NCBI RefSeq assembly: GCF_018069625.1
Contig: NZ_CP072941.1
Coordinates: 4,092,001 to 4,156,000, forward strand
Reading direction: 5' to 3'
DNA: 64,000 nucleotides
Origin: Streptomyces yatensis
GTDB taxonomy: Bacteria; Actinomycetota; Actinomycetes; Streptomycetales; Streptomycetaceae
Position 1 is the first letter of the stretch, and the number at the start of each line of letters is the position of its first letter. A program made the position numbers and the translations under genes. Positions 53,105 through 64,000 of this stretch are shown piece by piece. Under the pieces are notes generated by a model, which had not been told where the DNA came from, searched no databases, and was given only the letters and a program-made list of their open reading frames with translations.

Positions 53105-54940
53105 TCAGCCCAGGCGCTTGACCAGCGCGTGGTACTCGTCCCACATCTCCTTCGGCGTGTGCTCACCGAAGGTGTTGAGGTGGTCGGGCACCAGCCCGGC
53201 CTCCTCGCGCCAGACCTCCTTGTCGACCGTGAGCAGCAGCTCGAGCGAGGCGTCGTCGAGGTCAAGACCTTCGGTGTCCAGCGCCTCGGGCGTCGGCAGC
53301 ACCCCGATCGGGCTCTCCACGCCCTCGGCCTTGCCGTCCAGCCGGTCGACGATCCACTTCAGCACCCGGCTGTTCTCGCCGAAGCCCGGCCAGACGAAGT
53401 GCCCGTCGGCGTCCTTGCGGAACCAGTTGACGTAGTAGATCTTCGGCAGCTTGGCGGCGTCCGCGTTCTTGCCGACCTTCACCCAATGGGCCATGTAGTC
53501 GCCCATGTTGTAGCCGCAGAACGGCAGCATGGCGAACGGGTCGCGGCGCAGCTCGCCGACCTTGCCCTCGGCCGCGGCGGTCTTCTCGCTCGCCACGTTG
53601 GCGCCGAGGAAGACGCCGTGCTGCCAGTCGAAGGACTCGGTCACCAGCGGAACGGCGCTGGCCCGGCGGCCGCCGAAGAGGATCGCCGAGATCGGCACGC
53701 CCTTGGGGTCCTCCCACTCGGGCGCGATGATCGGGCACTGACCGGCCGGCACGGTGAAGCGGGCGTTGGGGTGGGCCGCGGGCGTCTCGCTCGCCGGGGT
53801 CCAGTCGTTGCCCTTCCAGTCGGTCAGATGGGCGGGCGGCTCCTCGGTCATGCCCTCCCACCACACATCGCCGTCGTCGGTGAGCGCGACATTGGTGAAG
53901 ACCGAGTTCCCCCACAGGGTCTTCATCGCGTTGGCGTTGGTGTGCTCACCGGTGCCGGGCGCGACGCCGAAGAAGCCCGCCTCGGGGTTGATCGCGTACA
54001 GCCTGCCGTCCTCGCCGAACCGCATCCAGGCGATGTCGTCGCCGATCGTCTCGACCGTCCAGCCGCGGATGGTCGGCTCCAGCATCGCGAGGTTGGTCTT
54101 GCCACAGGCGCTCGGGAACGCCGCGGCCACGTACTTGGACTCGCCGCGCGGCGGGGTGAGCTTGAGGATCAGCATGTGCTCGGCGAGCCAGCCCTCGTCC
54201 CGCGCCATCACGGAGGCGATGCGCAGGGCGTAGCACTTCTTGCCGAGCAGGGCGTTGCCGCCGTAGCCGGAGCCGTACGACCAGATCTCCCGCGCCTCCG
54301 GGAAGTGCGAGATGTACTTGGTCGAGTTGCACGGCCAGGGCACATCGGCCTGGCCCGGCTCCAGCGGGGCGCCGAGGGTGTGGACGGCCTTGACGAAGAA
54401 GCCCTCGTCCCCGAGGACGTCGAGGACCTCCTGTCCCATGCGGGTCATGGTGCGCATGGAGACGGCGACGTAGGCGGAGTCGGTGATCTCGACACCGATC
54501 GCGGACAGCGGCGAGCCGAGCGGGCCCATGCAGAAGGGCACGACGTACATGGTCCGGCCGCGCATGGAGCCCCGGAAGACGCCCTGCTCCCCGGCGAAGA
54601 TCTCGCGCATCTCGTCGGGGTGTTTCCAGTGGTTCGTCGGGCCCGCGTCCGCCTCCTTCTCGGAGCATATGAACGTACGGTCCTCGACGCGCGCCACATC
54701 GCTCGGATCGGAGGCGGCGTAGTACGAGTTGGGGCGCTTGATCGAATCAAGGCGTGTGAAGGTGCCCTTTTCGACGAGCTCCGCGCACAGGCGGTCGTAC
54801 TCCGCCTCCGAGCCGTCGCACCACACCACACGATCGGGCTGGGTGAGGGCGGCGATCTCGCCGACCCAGGAGACGAGCTCCTGGTGGTTCGTGGGGCTCG
54901 GGGTGGTCGTGAGGGAGGAAGCCACATTGCTGGGCGCCAC
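53105..54940 (-). CDS. pckA: GTP-dependent phosphoenolpyruvate carboxykinase
   Basis: A 611-residue enzyme that interconverts oxaloacetate and PEP with GTP. Recognisable sites: [16 protein letters not shown], substrate-binding [13 protein letters not shown], the P-loop with active cysteine [12 protein letters not shown], the metal site [20 protein letters not shown], and the guanine-binding region [20 protein letters not shown]. Length matches the GTP-type family (about 600). The GTG at 54940 ([10 protein letters not shown]) is chosen over the longer frame from 55015 because GGAG lies seven bases upstream. The gene faces the malic enzyme-fumarase gene across 4.5 kb and works at the same C3/C4 node. 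Confidence 0.96.
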
Positions 54941-55186
54941 GATCGCTCCATCCCGCCGGAACCGCACTCGCTCCGGCGTCTTGATTGAGGGTTTTGGACG
55001 AATATGTGCACTCATATTCGTTTATGGAGACAGCTACCCCTTGGGGGCTGCGACCCGGATGCTCAGCTCATCCGGTGCCGACCGCGCTCATTTGATCATC
55101 CGACTGTGTGGGCCATCTGTCCAGTGGGCGCTTTGGTGACCATCACCACTCGACATGAACCGGTAACTTACGGTGGCGTAGGTAGC

Positions 55187-57114: not shown

Positions 57115-59151
57115 TCAGCCCCCCAGCTTCGCCGTCAGGGCCTCGACGTCGGCCGTGGGTGCGTCGCAGGTGAAGCCGCGACAGACGTACGCCGCCGGGC
57201 GCCCCTCCAGCAGGGGGCGGTCCCGCAGCAGCGGGACCTCCCCGGAGCCGGGCTCGCCGACCGCGACGACCGCCCCGGGAGCGGTGGCCAGGAGCGCGGC
57301 GCGGTGCAGGGCGCGGGTCGCCGGGTCGTCGCCGGGGCCGACCACGGCCACCTCGCGCGGACCGTCGAGCCGGGCCTCGGCCACCGCCAGGCCCCAGCCG
57401 ATGAAGCGGGGCACCCGGGGGCCGAGGGCCCGCACCACCGCGAGGGCGCGCTCGGCGGCCTCGCGGTGGCGGGAGCTGCCGGTGATGGCGGCGTAGGACA
57501 GCAGGGCCCCGGCGGCGGCCGTCCAGCCGGACGGCGCCGCGTTGTCCGTCGGGTCCTGGGGGCGGCGGATGAGCGCCTCGGCGTCATCGGCGGTGTCGAA
57601 CAGCGTGCCGTCCTCGGCGGTGAACCGGGTCAGCACGGTGTCCAGGAGCAGCCCGGCGAAGTCCACCCACGCCCCCTCGCCGGTCACGGCGGACAGGGCG
57701 AGGAAGCCCTCGGCCACATCCGCGTAGTCCTCGAGCACGCCCGCGTGGGTGCCGGCGGTGCCGTCGAGCGAGGTGCGGGCCAGCCGCCCGCGCTGGTCCA
57801 TGTGGAGGCGCATCAGCAGGTCGGCGGCCTCGGTCGCGGCGTCCACCAGGTCGGGGCGGTCGAAATAGGCACCGGTCTCGGCGAGAGCCGCGACGGCCAG
57901 CCCGTTCCACGCGGCCACGATCTTGTCGTCGCGGCCGGGGCGGGCCCGCCGCTCCCGGGCGGCCAGCAGCCGCTCCCGTACGGAGGTGACCCGGCCCGCG
58001 TCCGCCGGCCGCTCCCCGTCGGGCAGCTGCAGCACGGAGGCTCCCTGCTCGAAGGTGCCCTCCTGGGTCACGCCGAAATACCCGGCGGCGAACTCCGCGT
58101 CGGCCTCCCCCAGCACCTCGCGCAGTTGCGCGGGCGTCCACACGTAGTACGCGCCCTCGACATGCCTGCCGGTGCCGTCGTCACTGTCGGCGTCCAGCGC
58201 GGAGGCGAAGCCGCCCTGCGCGGTGCGCAGCTCGCGGACCATGAAGTCCGCCGTCTCCAGGGCGACACGGCGCGCGAGGTCCGAGCCGGTGGCGCGCCAC
58301 AGATGGGCGTAGACCCGGCACAGCAGCGCGTTGTCATACAGCATCTTCTCGAAGTGCGGCACGGTCCAGCCGGCATCGACGGAATAGCGGGCGAAACCGC
58401 CGCCGAGCTGGTCATAGATACCGCCGCGGGCCATCGCCTCGCAGGTGGCCGACACCATCTGCAGCGCGCCCTCGGAGCCGGTGCGGGCGTGGTGGCGGAG
58501 CAGGAACTCCAGCGCCATGGACGGCGGGAACTTCGGCGCACCGCCGAAGCCGCCGCGCGTGGCGTCGAATTCTCGGGTCAGCCCCATGAGCGCGGCGTGC
58601 AGATCCTCCTCGCCGGGCGGTGCGGGCGCATCCGCGCCCAGGGCGATCCCGGTGCGCTGGGCCAGGTCCTCCACGATCCGCCCGGCGACATCGACCACCT
58701 CCTCGCGGCGGTCCGCCCAGGCGGCGCTCACCCCCTCCAGCACCTGCCGGAAGGACGGCATGCCGGGCCGGGGCCGGGGCGGGAAGTAGGTGCCGAAGTA
58801 GAACGGCTGGGCCTCGGGGGTCAGAAAGACCGTCATGGGCCAGCCGCCCTGACCGGTCGCGGCCTGCACCGCCTCCATGTACACCGCGTCGACGTCCGGC
58901 CGCTCCTCGCGGTCGACCTTCACGGAGACGAAGTGGGCGTTGAGGTACTCGGCGGTCTCCTTGTCCTCGAACGACTCATGGGCCATGACGTGGCACCAGT
59001 GGCAGCTCGAATAGCCGACGCTCAGCAGCACGGGCACCCCGCGGCGACGCGCATCCTCGAACGCCTCGTCCGACCACGGCCACCATTCGACCGGGTTCTC
59101 GGCGTGCTGCAGCAGATAGGGGGACGTTTCGTGCGCCAGACGGTTCGGCAT
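57115..59151 (-). CDS. Thioredoxin-domain protein of the YyaL/SSP411 (N-acylglucosamine 2-epimerase-like) family
   Basis: A 678-residue protein. The N-terminus [20 protein letters not shown] leads to a thioredoxin-like domain with CxxC in [18 protein letters not shown] (about 50-60). An (alpha/alpha)6-barrel follows (about 200-600) with [32 protein letters not shown] and [13 protein letters not shown]. The role of this widely conserved family is unclear; a catalytic barrel with redox domain is all one can say. The ATG at 59151 has GGAGG 11 bases upstream. It is divergent from the malic enzyme-fumarase gene. Confidence 0.93.
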
Positions 59152-59460
59152 GGGTCCATCCTCCCCCACCCGGCGAGGCAGACCGAAGTTATCCACAGCA
59201 CGTGACCAACAGGCCGCCGTATGCACGGTGGACCGGAGCGGACCCGTCCGGTCCGCCCCGCGTGGGGATGCGGACGGCGGCAAGTCTATGAGCGCGTCCG
59301 GGGGGCCGGGAGTGCGGAGTGGTCGCATACGGCCCGGCGGCGCCACGATGGTTATGTGGGGTTTTGATCCCCGTGTGCGGCGTTCGCGCTGGTGCGGAGC
59401 CGGGCGTCAGGACTGCACGGATCAGTCCTTACAACGGCCGCTCGAGAAGGATGGAAAGCC
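59152..59460. other. Divergent promoter region of the YyaL-type and malic enzyme-fumarase genes
   Basis: The 309-bp gap holds both promoters. A hairpin, GGACTG-CACGGAT-CAGTCC (59410-59428), lies 32 bases before the fusion gene's ATG and could be an operator or part of its leader. A lone TTATCCACA (59189-59197) matches a DnaA box, probably by chance. I cannot place -35/-10 elements with confidence. Confidence 0.4.
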
Positions 59461-62400
59461 ATGAGCACGGAGAAGGGAACGCGCGGCTCCGCAGGGGTCG
59501 CCGTGCTGCGTGACCCGATCCGCAATCGCGGGACCGCGTTCACGGAGGAGGAGCGCACGCGGTTCGGGCTGACCGGTCTGGTGCCACCGGGGGTGCTGTC
59601 GGAAGAGCAGCAGGCGGTGCGCGCGTACGAGCAGTTCATGGCACAGCCGACTCCGCTGGCCCAGAACACGTTCCTGGAATCGCTACGGGACCGCAACGAG
59701 ACGCTGTACTACAAACTGCTCGTCGATCACCTGCCCGAGATGCTGCCGATCGTGTACGACCCGGTCGTCGGGCAGGCCATCGAGCAGTACAGCCATGAGT
59801 ACCAGCGGCCACGCGGCGTGTACCTGTCGGTGGACGACCCCGACTCCGTGGAGGCCGCGTTCGCGAACCTGGGGCTCGGCGCCGACGACGTCGACCTGCT
59901 GGTGGCCACCGACGCCGAGGAGATCCTCGGCATCGGCGACTGGGGCAGCAACGGCATGGGAATCTCGCAGGGCAAGCTCGCCGTCTACACGGCGGCCGCG
60001 GGCATCGACCCGGCCCGGGTCATCCCGGTCATGCTCGACGTCGGCACCAACAACGAGGCCCTGCTCAACGACCCCATGTACGTCGGGCTGCGGCACTCCC
60101 GCGACCGCGCCGAGGCGTACGACCGGCTCATCGACGCCTACGTCACGGCCGCCTCGCGGCGCTTCCCGAAGGCGCTGCTGCACTTCGAGGACTTCGGCCC
60201 GTCCAACGCCCGCCGGATCCTGCTGGAGTACGCGGACAAGGCCTGCGTCTTCAACGACGACATGCAGGGCACCGGCGCGATCACCCTGGCCGCCGTCCTG
60301 GCCGGCGTACGGGCGGCCGGCACACCGCTGGCCGAGCAGCGGGTGGTCGTCTTCGGCGCCGGCACCGCCGGAGTGGGCATCGCCGACCAGATCCGCGACG
60401 CGATGGTCCGCGCCGGCGCCCGGCAGGAGACGGCGTCCCAGCAGATCTGGCTGGTCGACCGGCAGGGCCTGCTGCTGGACGACATGAGCGACCTGCGCGA
60501 CTTCCAGACCCCGTTCGCGCGGTCGGCGGGCGAGGCCACAAGCTACGAACGGGACGGCGAAGGCCGGATCTCCCTCGCCACCACGGTGGCCGAGGTGCAC
60601 CCGACCATCTTGATCGGCACCTCGACGGCTGGTGACACCTTCACCGAGCCGATCATCCGAACCATGGCCGCGCATGTCGACCGGCCCCTGATCTTCCCGC
60701 TCTCGAACCCGACCGAGAAGATCGAGGCCCACCCGGCCGACCTCATCCACTGGACCGAGGGGCGGGCGCTGATCGGCACCGGCACCCCGTGGGATCCGGT
60801 GTCGTACCAGGGCGTCGACTACAAGATCGGGCAGGCCAACAACGCCCTGGTCTACCCCGGCCTCGGCCTGGGCACCGTGGTCTCCCGCGCGAAGCACGTC
60901 ACCCCCGGCATGATCCGCGCCGCCGCCGAGGCGGTCGCCGGCCTGGTCGACACCACCGTCCCCGGAGCCTCGCTGCTCCCCGGGGTGGCCGACCTCCGCG
61001 CCTCCTCCGCCACCGTCGCGGTCGCCGTCGTACGCCAGGCACTCGAGGAGGGCGTCGCCCGGGCCAGGATCGATGACGTCGTACAGGCCGTGCAGCAGGC
61101 GATGTGGCAGCCCGAATACCCCGCCTCCTCCGAGGCAGGCCGTGGGACGACGACCGCCGCGGACAGAGCCACGACCGCCGGCACCCGCGTCGAGAGCGAT
61201 TCGATGGGCCAGATCGAGGTGCCCGCCGATCACTACTGGGGCGCGCAGACCCAGCGTTCCCTGATCCACTTCTCCATCGGTGACGACCACATGCCCAAGG
61301 CCGTCTACCACGCCTACGGCTATGTCAAGAAGGCCGCCGCGATGGTCAACCGGCGCGCGGGCCGCCTGGACGAGCGGCGCGCCGACGCGATCATCCGGGC
61401 CGCCGACGAGGTCATCGCCGGTGACCTGGACGCGGAGTTCCCGCTGTACGTGTGGCAGACCGGCTCGGGCACCCAGTCGAACATGAACGTCAACGAGGTG
61501 ATCGGCAACCGGGCCGGCGAGCTGCTCGGCGGCACCCTCGGCTCCAAGGCCCCCGTGCATCCCAACGACCATGTCAACATGGGCCAGTCGTCCAACGACA
61601 CCTTCCCCACCGCGATGCACATCGCCACCGTGCTGGAGGTCACCGGGCATCTGCTGCCCCGGGTCGACCGGCTCACCCAGGCGATCCGCACCAAGGCCGA
61701 CGCCTGGGTGGACGTCGTCAAGATCGGCCGCACCCATCTGCAGGACGCCACCCCGCTCACCGTCGGCCAGGAGTGGTCCGGCTGGGCCGCACAGCTGGAC
61801 GACGCACGCACCAGGCTGGCCGACAGCCTCCATGCCGTCAGCCGGCTCGCCGCCGGCGGCACCGCCGTGGGCACGGGGCTGAACGCTCCCGAAGGGTTCG
61901 ACGAGGAGATCGCCGCGCAGCTCGCCGAGCTCGTCGGCCATCCCTTCGTCACCGCGCCCAACAAGTTCGCGGCCCAGGGCTCGCTGGACGCGATGGTCGC
62001 GGTCAGTGCCGGGCTGCGCGGTCTGGCCGTCGCGCTGATGAAGATCGCCAACGATATGCGCTGGCTGGCCTCCGGACCCCGCGCCGGGCTGCATGAACTC
62101 AAGCTGCCGGCCAACGAGCCCGGTTCCTCGATCATGCCCGGGAAGGTCAACCCGACCCAGCAGGAGGCCATGGTCATGGTCTGCCTGCAGGTCCTCGGGG
62201 AGGACGCGCTCATCGCCTCCGCCGGGGCACAGGGCAACTTCGAGCTCAACGCCATGCGCCCGATCGTCATCAACAACGTGCTGCACTCGGCCCGGATCCT
62301 CGGCGACGCCTGCGAGAAGCTGCGCCGCTACAGCGTCGAGGGCACCGAACTCGACCGACCCACGATCGACGAGTACGTGGACCGGTCCCTCATGCTCGTG

Positions 62401-62604
62401 ACCGCGCTCAGCCCCACCATCGGCTACGACAAGGCATCCGCGATCGCGCACAAGGCCGACGACGAGGGCACCACCCTGCGCGAGGCCGCCCTCGCCTCGG
62501 GCGTCTCCGCCGCCGACTTCGACCGCCTCGCCGACCCCACCACCATGGTCGGGCGGCCCCGGAGCGACCTGGGGCTCGACCGATCCGACGACGACCGCAC
62601 CTGA
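59461..62604 (+). CDS. Bifunctional malic enzyme-class II fumarase fusion
   Basis: A single 1047-residue frame. Residues 1-555 are an NAD-type malic enzyme of the SfcA/MaeA family. It has FTEEERTRFGLTGLVPPGVL, the catalytic Tyr region PIVYDPVVGQAIEQYS, DWGSNGMGISQGKLAVYTAA, the metal site FNDDMQGTGAI (about 264), and the Rossmann motif VVVFGAGTAGVGIADQIRDA (about 298). A 25-residue Thr/Ala/Arg linker follows. Residues 582-1047 are a class II fumarase: QIEVPADHYWGAQTQRS, SGTQSNMNVNEVI, GRTHLQDATPL and the signature GSSIMPGKVNPTQQEA (about 888). All key residues of both halves are present. It should convert fumarate to malate and malate to pyruvate, CO2 and NADH. The ATG at 59461 has GGAAAG upstream. 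Confidence 0.93.
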   Translation: MSTEKGTRGSAGVAVLRDPIRNRGTAFTEEERTRFGLTGLVPPGVLSEEQQAVRAYEQFMAQPTPLAQNTFLESLRDRNETLYYKLLVDHLPEMLPIVYDPVVGQAIEQYSHEYQRPRGVYLSVDDPDSVEAAFANLGLGADDVDLLVATDAEEILGIGDWGSNGMGISQGKLAVYTAAAGIDPARVIPVMLDVGTNNEALLNDPMYVGLRHSRDRAEAYDRLIDAYVTAASRRFPKALLHFEDFGPSNARRILLEYADKACVFNDDMQGTGAITLAAVLAGVRAAGTPLAEQRVVVFGAGTAGVGIADQIRDAMVRAGARQETASQQIWLVDRQGLLLDDMSDLRDFQTPFARSAGEATSYERDGEGRISLATTVAEVHPTILIGTSTAGDTFTEPIIRTMAAHVDRPLIFPLSNPTEKIEAHPADLIHWTEGRALIGTGTPWDPVSYQGVDYKIGQANNALVYPGLGLGTVVSRAKHVTPGMIRAAAEAVAGLVDTTVPGASLLPGVADLRASSATVAVAVVRQALEEGVARARIDDVVQAVQQAMWQPEYPASSEAGRGTTTAADRATTAGTRVESDSMGQIEVPADHYWGAQTQRSLIHFSIGDDHMPKAVYHAYGYVKKAAAMVNRRAGRLDERRADAIIRAADEVIAGDLDAEFPLYVWQTGSGTQSNMNVNEVIGNRAGELLGGTLGSKAPVHPNDHVNMGQSSNDTFPTAMHIATVLEVTGHLLPRVDRLTQAIRTKADAWVDVVKIGRTHLQDATPLTVGQEWSGWAAQLDDARTRLADSLHAVSRLAAGGTAVGTGLNAPEGFDEEIAAQLAELVGHPFVTAPNKFAAQGSLDAMVAVSAGLRGLAVALMKIANDMRWLASGPRAGLHELKLPANEPGSSIMPGKVNPTQQEAMVMVCLQVLGEDALIASAGAQGNFELNAMRPIVINNVLHSARILGDACEKLRRYSVEGTELDRPTIDEYVDRSLMLVTALSPTIGYDKASAIAHKADDEGTTLREAALASGVSAADFDRLADPTTMVGRPRSDLGLDRSDDDRT

Positions 62605-62628: not shown

Positions 62629-64000
62629 CTACTGGGCGTCGAGGCTCATGAAGAGGCTGTTCAGGCCCTCCGCCAGCAGCGGGTGCGTGAAAATGGCATT
62701 CGCCATGGCGGTGTACGGGAGCCCGCCCAGCATGGCGACCTGGATGATCGTCATGATCTCGCCGCCTTCCACACCGAGCACGGCGGCGCCGAGGATCCGC
62801 TGGGTGTCCGCATCGATGACGGCTTTCATGAAGCCGCGCGTCTCCCCCGTTTCGAGGGCCCGGATGACGGCGTTCATCGGCAGCTTCGCGACCCGGACCG
62901 AGCGGTTCTGCTCCGCGGCCTGTCGCTCGGTCATGCCGACGCGGCCGAGCTGCGGGTCGATGAAGACGGCGTACGGGACGACCCTGTCCCGCGTGCTCGC
63001 CTTTCCCTGGCCGAGCAGATTGGTGCGCAGGATCCGGTAGTCGTCGAAGGAGAGGTGGGTGAAGGCCGGGCCGCCTTTGACATCCCCCATGGCGTAGACG
63101 CCGGGGACGGAGGTTTCCAGGTACTCGTCGACCTCGATGAAGCCGTTGTCGCTCAGCCGGATGCCCGCCGCCACCGGCGTGAGCGCCTCCGTGTTGGGGA
63201 CGCGGCCGATGGCCGACAGCAGGTGGGAGCCCTCGAGCTGGCGCTCACCGTCCGGCGTGCGCACGGTCAGCCGCACCCGGCCGCCGCCCGCCTCCTCGAC
63301 CCGTTCCGGCGTCACCGACGTCAGGACCGTGATCCCGTCGTCGCGCAGGAGCGTGGCGACCTCGTCGGCCACGTCCTCGTCCTCGCGCATCAACAGACGA
63401 GGGCCGGTCTGGACGATCGTGACCTCGCTGCCGAACCTGCGGAACATCTGTCCGAACTCCAGCCCGATGTAACCGCCACCGAGGATGATCAGGTGCTCGG
63501 GGAGCTCGCCCAGCTCCATGATCGATGTCGAGTCCAGGACAGGGACGCTCTGCGCGCCGCTGATGGTCAGCTGCCTGGGCCGGGTGCCCGTGTCGATGAC
63601 GATCACCGACGCGCCGATCTCCCGCGTCCCGCCGTCCGGCAGGGCGATCTCGACCGTCTTGGGCCCGGTGAAACGGGCCTCGCCCTCGACCAGGTCGAGC
63701 CCGGCCTGCGGCAGGCGGCTCGCGTAGTTCTCCCGCGCGCCCGCGACCATCGCCCGCTTGCGCTCCCGCACGGCGGCGAGGTCGACCGACACCGGGCCGG
63801 TCCGCACGCCGTACTCCGCGCCGCGCCGCGCCTGGTGGGCGACGCGTGCGCTGGCGACCATGGTCTTGGTCGGGGTGCATCCGGAGTTCACGCAGACGCC
63901 GCCCAGGTGGCCGCGCTCCACGAGCGCCACCTTCCTGCCCGCCTTCGCGAGATCGATGGGCAGGAACCGGCCGCCCTGGCTGGTCCCGATCACCATCACG
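62629..64000 (-). CDS. Dihydrolipoamide dehydrogenase/mercuric reductase-like flavoprotein, 5' end outside window
   Basis: 457 residues are visible, nearly the full length. The FAD-binding start appears as VIGTSQGGRFLPIDLAKAG. The redox disulfide is GGVCVNSGCTPTKTM. NAD binding is IILGGGYIGLEFGQMFRRFG, the second FAD motif VYAMGDVKGGPAFTHLS, and the dimer interface GLPYTAMANAIFTHPLLAEG with the His that normally pairs with Glu. The GTSQGG in place of GxGxxG and the Thr-Pro-Thr after the disulfide suggest a mercuric-reductase-like or unclassified disulfide reductase rather than a true Lpd. It converges on the malic enzyme-fumarase gene with a 24-base gap. Confidence 0.88.
   Translation of the reverse strand, partial: VMVIGTSQGGRFLPIDLAKAGRKVALVERGHLGGVCVNSGCTPTKTMVASARVAHQARRGAEYGVRTGPVSVDLAAVRERKRAMVAGARENYASRLPQAGLDLVEGEARFTGPKTVEIALPDGGTREIGASVIVIDTGTRPRQLTISGAQSVPVLDSTSIMELGELPEHLIILGGGYIGLEFGQMFRRFGSEVTIVQTGPRLLMREDEDVADEVATLLRDDGITVLTSVTPERVEEAGGGRVRLTVRTPDGERQLEGSHLLSAIGRVPNTEALTPVAAGIRLSDNGFIEVDEYLETSVPGVYAMGDVKGGPAFTHLSFDDYRILRTNLLGQGKASTRDRVVPYAVFIDPQLGRVGMTERQAAEQNRSVRVAKLPMNAVIRALETGETRGFMKAVIDADTQRILGAAVLGVEGGEIMTIIQVAMLGGLPYTAMANAIFTHPLLAEGLNSLFMSLDAQ

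Follow-up and report, generated by a model that had tools for sequence, protein, structure and literature searches.

A malic enzyme and a class II fumarase encoded as one predicted bifunctional protein in Streptomyces yatensis

Does a single gene of Streptomyces yatensis encode two enzymes that meet at malate and, if so, is the join genuine, where did it come from and what would it do? The gene lies in a window of 64,000 nucleotides (contig NZ_CP072941.1, positions 4,092,001 to 4,156,000, of assembly GCF_018069625.1), in which one frame on the forward strand, 59461..62604 with the TGA stop included, encodes 1047 residues. An earlier note on this DNA had described the product as a malic enzyme and a class II fumarase in one chain, and its coordinates, length and single frame proved exact. 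Based on domain and family matches and on sister fusions, our reading, to which we give a probability of about three in four, is that this one chain comprises a complete malic enzyme followed by a complete class II fumarase, and that it is predicted to convert fumarate, by way of malate, into pyruvate and CO2, likely with formation of NADH.

Four Pfam families cover the protein, each at about the full length of its model: malic (residues 77-257, 217.9 bits) and Malic_M (268-527, 322.6 bits) in the malic enzyme half (residues 11-553; 59491..61119, forward strand), and Lyase_1 (583-913) and FumaraseC_C (979-1030) in the fumarase half (residues 575-1031; 61183..62553, forward strand). The first half scores 784.4 bits with the NCBIfam malic enzyme model PRK13529 (NF010052; cut-off 326), and by this family cut-off it is predicted to be a large-type NAD malic enzyme (MaeA/ME2-like). 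Its best PDB chain by sequence, among the matches listed (60 of 94), is 6urf, the malic enzyme of M. tuberculosis, and within the same listed matches no chain carries both halves. Gln349 aligns with a Lys of the NADP malic enzyme 7x11 (which we take to be human ME1 and its Lys362); the position of this Lys sets the preference for NAD or NADP in malic enzymes, and by that rule Gln349 suggests NAD as the cofactor. The second half scores 674.8 bits with the class II fumarase equivalog model TIGR00979, a slim margin of about ten bits over the cut-off of 664.75. All 12 positions mapped from E. coli FumC are identical in it (T100, H129, S139, S140, N141, T187, H188, S318, S319, K324, N326 and E331), and these are presumably active-site residues. 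The claim that both enzymes are complete and keep their catalytic motifs is borne out by these family scores and mapped residues. Two other assignments were rejected: aspartate ammonia-lyase for the fumarase half, at 495.6 bits against a cut-off of 510 (PRK12273) and 418.9 against 681.2 (aspA), and a MaeB-type hybrid, since Pfam gives four families only on the chain and no PTA domain.

The two halves are separated by a stop-free linker of 21 residues (554-574; 61120..61182, forward strand). In an AlphaFold2 model built from 51 sequences (mean predicted local distance difference test score, pLDDT, 78.3; predicted template modelling score, pTM, 0.50), residues 551-572 fall below a pLDDT of 50, and the model suggests two folded parts connected by a disordered linker, the halves having no fixed mutual arrangement. 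Consistent with this picture, Foldseek matched the halves separately to malic enzymes (6ags, 6urf) and to fumarases (6n1m, 5d6b), with target TM values of 0.90-0.93 for the fumarase chains among the 50 rows listed.

Is the join genuine? Genomes were scanned in overlapping draws (392 and 393 genomes of the genus and 297 of the family), with two candidates scored per genome. A full-length fusion was found in three of the 392: the source genome (G000) and those of two other species, G174 (95% identical) and G079 (94%). The same three were recovered from the 393-genome draw, and G000 alone from the family. A further protein at NCBI, P0002 from Streptomyces sp. NPDC020125 (1052 residues, 94% identical, a cluster of 21 member sequences), is likewise fused, and is the sole such protein with an NCBI name, 'class II fumarate hydratase', which describes only its fumarase half. 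The ratio of nonsynonymous to synonymous substitution rates (dN/dS) among the three DNA sequences lies at 0.16-0.20 in the malic half, at 0.13-0.25 in the fumarase half and at 1.1-2.3 in the linker, the last a rough value over 19-21 codons; linker lengths differ by two codons (a 6-nucleotide indel) and the reading frame is always kept. Purifying selection acts on each half, and drift in the linker is free but stays in frame. The fusion is real and is kept in at least four sequences (the window, G174, G079 and P0002); a stop or frameshift concealed within 61100-61210, which the earlier note had named as fatal to the claim, is excluded by the other three reading through the same junction.

The start of the chain is conserved as well: ATG 59461, preceded at a distance of nine bases by a Shine-Dalgarno-like AGAAGGA (59445..59451, forward strand), is kept together with a similar upstream region in G174 and G079. 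An alternative upstream start, GTG 59392, to which the frame is open, would give 1070 residues. Residues 549 to 581 contain no in-frame ATG, GTG, TTG or CTG. Separate synthesis of the fumarase from an internal start seems unlikely: the in-frame GTG 61090, ATG 61102, ATG 61204 and GTG 61219 lie within residues 540-599, and none stands where the fumarase of split gene pairs begins.

Such split pairs, a malic enzyme gene followed directly by a fumarase gene as in the fusion, occur in 15 of the 392 genus genomes, and these were read closely together with one pair from another family (G057). Stop and start overlap as ATGA in 14 of the 16 (the exceptions being L043 and L047), which is the usual sign of coupled translation. 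Relative to the malic enzyme, the fumarase is out of frame by two in 15 pairs and by one in L043, so that joining the genes needs an indel, and the fusion is without the fumarase start and part of the fumarase N-terminal extension. Judged from the sequences, a coupled split pair is the most likely ancestor of the fusion. In a single origin in this lineage, a net frame-changing indel would have removed the stop and the fumarase start, bringing the ATGA-overlapping genes into one frame and somewhat shortening the N-terminus of the fumarase. In maximum-likelihood trees on hand-picked rows (69 malic, 49 fumarase), the four fusions group at 100/100 in the malic tree, with the unfused metagenomic P0004 as sister, and weakly, at 83/37, in the fumarase tree. 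A second fusion with the malic enzyme first may be P0003, a protein of 927 residues that begins within the malic domain and whose malic half nests among unfused relatives. The neighbours of the split pairs vary and give no hint of a pathway; what we take to be a short-chain reductase recurs in three loci and a presumed aldehyde dehydrogenase-like gene in two. On a plasmid of Gluconobacter oxydans H24 (L146 5953-9057), malic enzyme and fumarase share one frame, and three bases separate the stop of the one from the start of the other. On a plasmid of Streptomyces sp. NBC_01483 (L147 9425-10795), the fumarase of a split pair has an in-frame stop and is possibly decaying.

Chains with both halves, for which the earlier note had proposed looking, made up 20 of the 232 proteins returned by two protein searches. 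Four rows have the order seen here (P0001, P0002, P0003 and P0074, the last a probable frameshift that we rejected as a true fusion because its malic half looks frameshifted), and 16 metagenomic clusters (P0006-P0011 and ten more) are fused with the fumarase first. Six of the latter are full-length, at 1035-1044 residues with differing linkers, and P0127 and P0128 look internally deleted. In both trees the reverse fusions lie near split pairs of Acidobacteriota (L057, L058), weakly so for the fumarase (87/70). Their opposite domain order indicates a separate, independent join. Neither 78 genome loci nor 347 genomes from the phylum of Edaphobacter (two candidates scored in each, five with any match at 1e-180) yielded a reverse fusion. 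Counted over 79 loci (the 78 and one viral), which were picked by the reverse-fusion query and so give no unbiased frequency, fumarase and malic enzyme genes lie adjacent in that order in 55, with one pair 1.3 kb apart, and the remaining 24 hold one half only within the stretch examined. Their record titles name Acidobacteria, Proteobacteria, Cyanobacteria, Desulfovibrio relatives and others, and the viral contigs yielded one partial fumarase. Plasmid pairs were seen with the malic enzyme first in Gluconobacter and Streptomyces and with the fumarase first in Providencia, and Methylocella also has a pair. The notion that malate links the two enzymes is strengthened by these widespread pairs and by the reverse-order fusion. 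In the fumarase-first pairs L057 and L059 the two genes share a frame and are separated by just one stop, and the Edaphobacter genome G696 has split pairs in both orders (C2:307694-310768, fumarase then malic enzyme; C5:7442-10671, malic enzyme then fumarase). Tandem arrangements were also seen: P0129, a metagenomic protein of 1168 residues, has two malic enzymes, of which the second matches the malic part of P0006 at 63% identity and the first at 39%, and P0005 (954 residues, named Fragaria x ananassa) and P0036 (1008 residues) have tandem fumarase-type domains, the second of P0036 being only 41% like fumarase.

What would the fused protein do? The fumarase half would hydrate fumarate to malate, which the malic half would decarboxylate to pyruvate and CO2, likely forming NADH. 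The fusion would fix the two activities at a 1:1 ratio and co-locate them, probably inside mixed tetramers since malic enzyme and fumarase are both normally tetrameric, and we think that fixed stoichiometry and co-location are its most likely benefit. True channelling of malate is possible. Fumarate, an allosteric activator of human ME2, might also act in that way on the malic half. Beside the housekeeping enzymes, the protein could serve as an accessory outlet through which C4 acids derived from amino acids, dicarboxylates or aromatics reach pyruvate. Several observations weigh against this reading. The genome has a class I fumarase elsewhere (4061454, above cut-off) and two genes of the class II fumarase/aspartase family, 4067759 and 9896902. 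As delimited for the scan, both score below the cut-off for fumarase, and 4067759 is above that of the aspartase-subfamily model PRK12273; the other (L137 4903-6336; G000:C1:9896902-9898335) is a stand-alone FumC-type gene whose product is 67% identical to the fused fumarase and scores 636 against the 664.75 of TIGR00979. A malic-enzyme-family match at 3818697 is a fragment under its cut-offs. The fusion is rare in the genus, and most bacteria with the pair keep the genes unfused. In a further genome, G189, the fusion gene has been lost, leaving only 3' remnants of the fumarase after one large and smaller deletions. Finally, model confidence is low at 758-762 and 886-896, stretches that include fumarase active-site residues. 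Because of the further fumarase- and malic-family genes and the loss in G189, the fusion is probably accessory and not the housekeeping route.

Among the other explanations, one that we hold to be rather probable is bookkeeping bifunctionality, in which co-expression and stoichiometry are fixed and malate diffuses freely between the sites. It is favoured by the linker, which is unconserved, with a dN/dS of about 1 or above, and disordered in the model, implying no fixed domain arrangement, and by the ATGA coupling of the split relatives, which already suggests selection on co-expression; on the other side, fusions in two opposite orders hint at something beyond a single accident, without making channelling necessary. 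We regard as unlikely a near-neutral fusion, harmless and of no benefit, drifting in one small clade: its rarity (three of 392), its loss in G189 and its probable accessory place beside other fumarase-family genes would fit, but purifying selection acts on both halves, four sequences retain the join and the reverse-order join is independent. The boldest proposal, a convergent bifunctional class that arose by two or more joins, in opposite orders, and whose co-assembled tetramers would outpace malate dehydrogenase for malate as a committed fumarate-to-pyruvate exit from the tricarboxylic acid (TCA) cycle, we consider doubtful. A malolactic enzyme as the first half, with lactate as the product that the chain would form from fumarate, is very improbable: the NCBIfam malolactic model NF041582 gives 687.3 bits and UniRef names several relatives 'malolactic enzyme', but the cut-off of 850 is not reached, that of PRK13529 is exceeded by 458 bits and the closest solved chains are malic enzymes. 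A sequencing or assembly artefact, in which a lost stop or an indel made one gene of two, as seems to have happened in P0074 where an apparently frameshifted malic enzyme runs into the fumarase frame, is rejected because G079, G174 and P0002, mutually divergent across the gene, read through the junction that lies on one contig in G000, and because the linker indel is of 6 nucleotides and each domain stays in its own frame up to the 21-residue linker.

The surroundings of the fused malic enzyme-fumarase gene were compared among the same genomes. The divergent gene on the reverse strand (57115..59346) is an open reading frame of 743 residues, presumably thioredoxin-like/DUF255, whose start is probably further in, near 59151; it has no NCBIfam match at 1e-20. 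The convergent gene (62629..63999, reverse strand) encodes a FAD-containing oxidoreductase that reaches the cut-off of none of the 25 NCBIfam models listed. Both flanking genes are kept in G079, G174 and G189. Phosphoenolpyruvate (PEP) carboxykinase (GTP) lies at 53105..55015 on the reverse strand (PRK04210, 1017 bits, cut-off 504). The earlier placement of the fusion next to PEP carboxykinase holds as far as the neighbourhood goes, but the two genes are 4.4 kb apart on opposite strands with three others between, which rules out an operon or shared transcription unit. G000 and G079 have in common the order PEP carboxykinase, hemolysin III/TrhA family, TetR-like, divergent long reading frame, fusion and FAD oxidoreductase, and in G174, on a short contig, only the two nearest flanking genes are visible and are the same as in G000. 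G189 has this neighbourhood too, with flanks 95-98% identical except for the TetR-like gene (85%), and a deletion scar (L170) lies there, flanked by the FAD oxidoreductase and DUF255-like genes. Overall, the earlier interpretation is partly supported.

How does this compare with known systems? A full-text search of open-licence literature, with searches partly not aimed at fusions, gave no description of a natural malic enzyme-fumarase fusion among the matches listed, in agreement with the earlier statement that none was known. The case is thus one of known enzymes in a fusion for which we found no description, and what is unusual is the convergence in both orders. The MaeB-type hybrid (PMC7902834) likewise carries, behind the catalytic part of a malic enzyme, a second enzyme fold in the same chain, a phosphotransacetylase-like domain; it differs in that the partner here is a fumarase with mapped active-site residues, and in that its catalytic part is given there as 434 residues, compared with about 550 in the large-type (MaeA/ME2-like) malic half. 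The adjacent gene pairs of the Gluconobacter oxydans H24 plasmid and of Streptomycetaceae, in the latter mostly with ATGA, specify the same two enzymes, but as two proteins. The reverse-order metagenomic fusions again put both enzymes in one chain, but with the opposite domain order, a longer linker and a malic half of another subfamily (36-38% identity across its whole length), and a Met near the former malic enzyme start is kept in 13 of 14 junction-spanning rows, the exception being P0131. Engineered cascades (PMC13340500) run the same two consecutive reactions, reversibly, linking pyruvate and C4 acids; there the enzymes are separate and artificially co-immobilised, together with aspartase, and do not form a natural fusion. 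Other sources consulted were a review of channelling (PMC6750097) and papers on archaeal fusions (PMC11237513) and on Euglena (PMC6630311).

Fusions are evidence that the joined enzymes cooperate, and the pairing is likely useful to cells, because reverse-order fusions occur in metagenomes and side-by-side genes in many other bacteria. Taken with the overlapping pairs and the plasmid pairs, fusions in both orders suggest that the conversion of fumarate to pyruvate is a two-step module that recurs.
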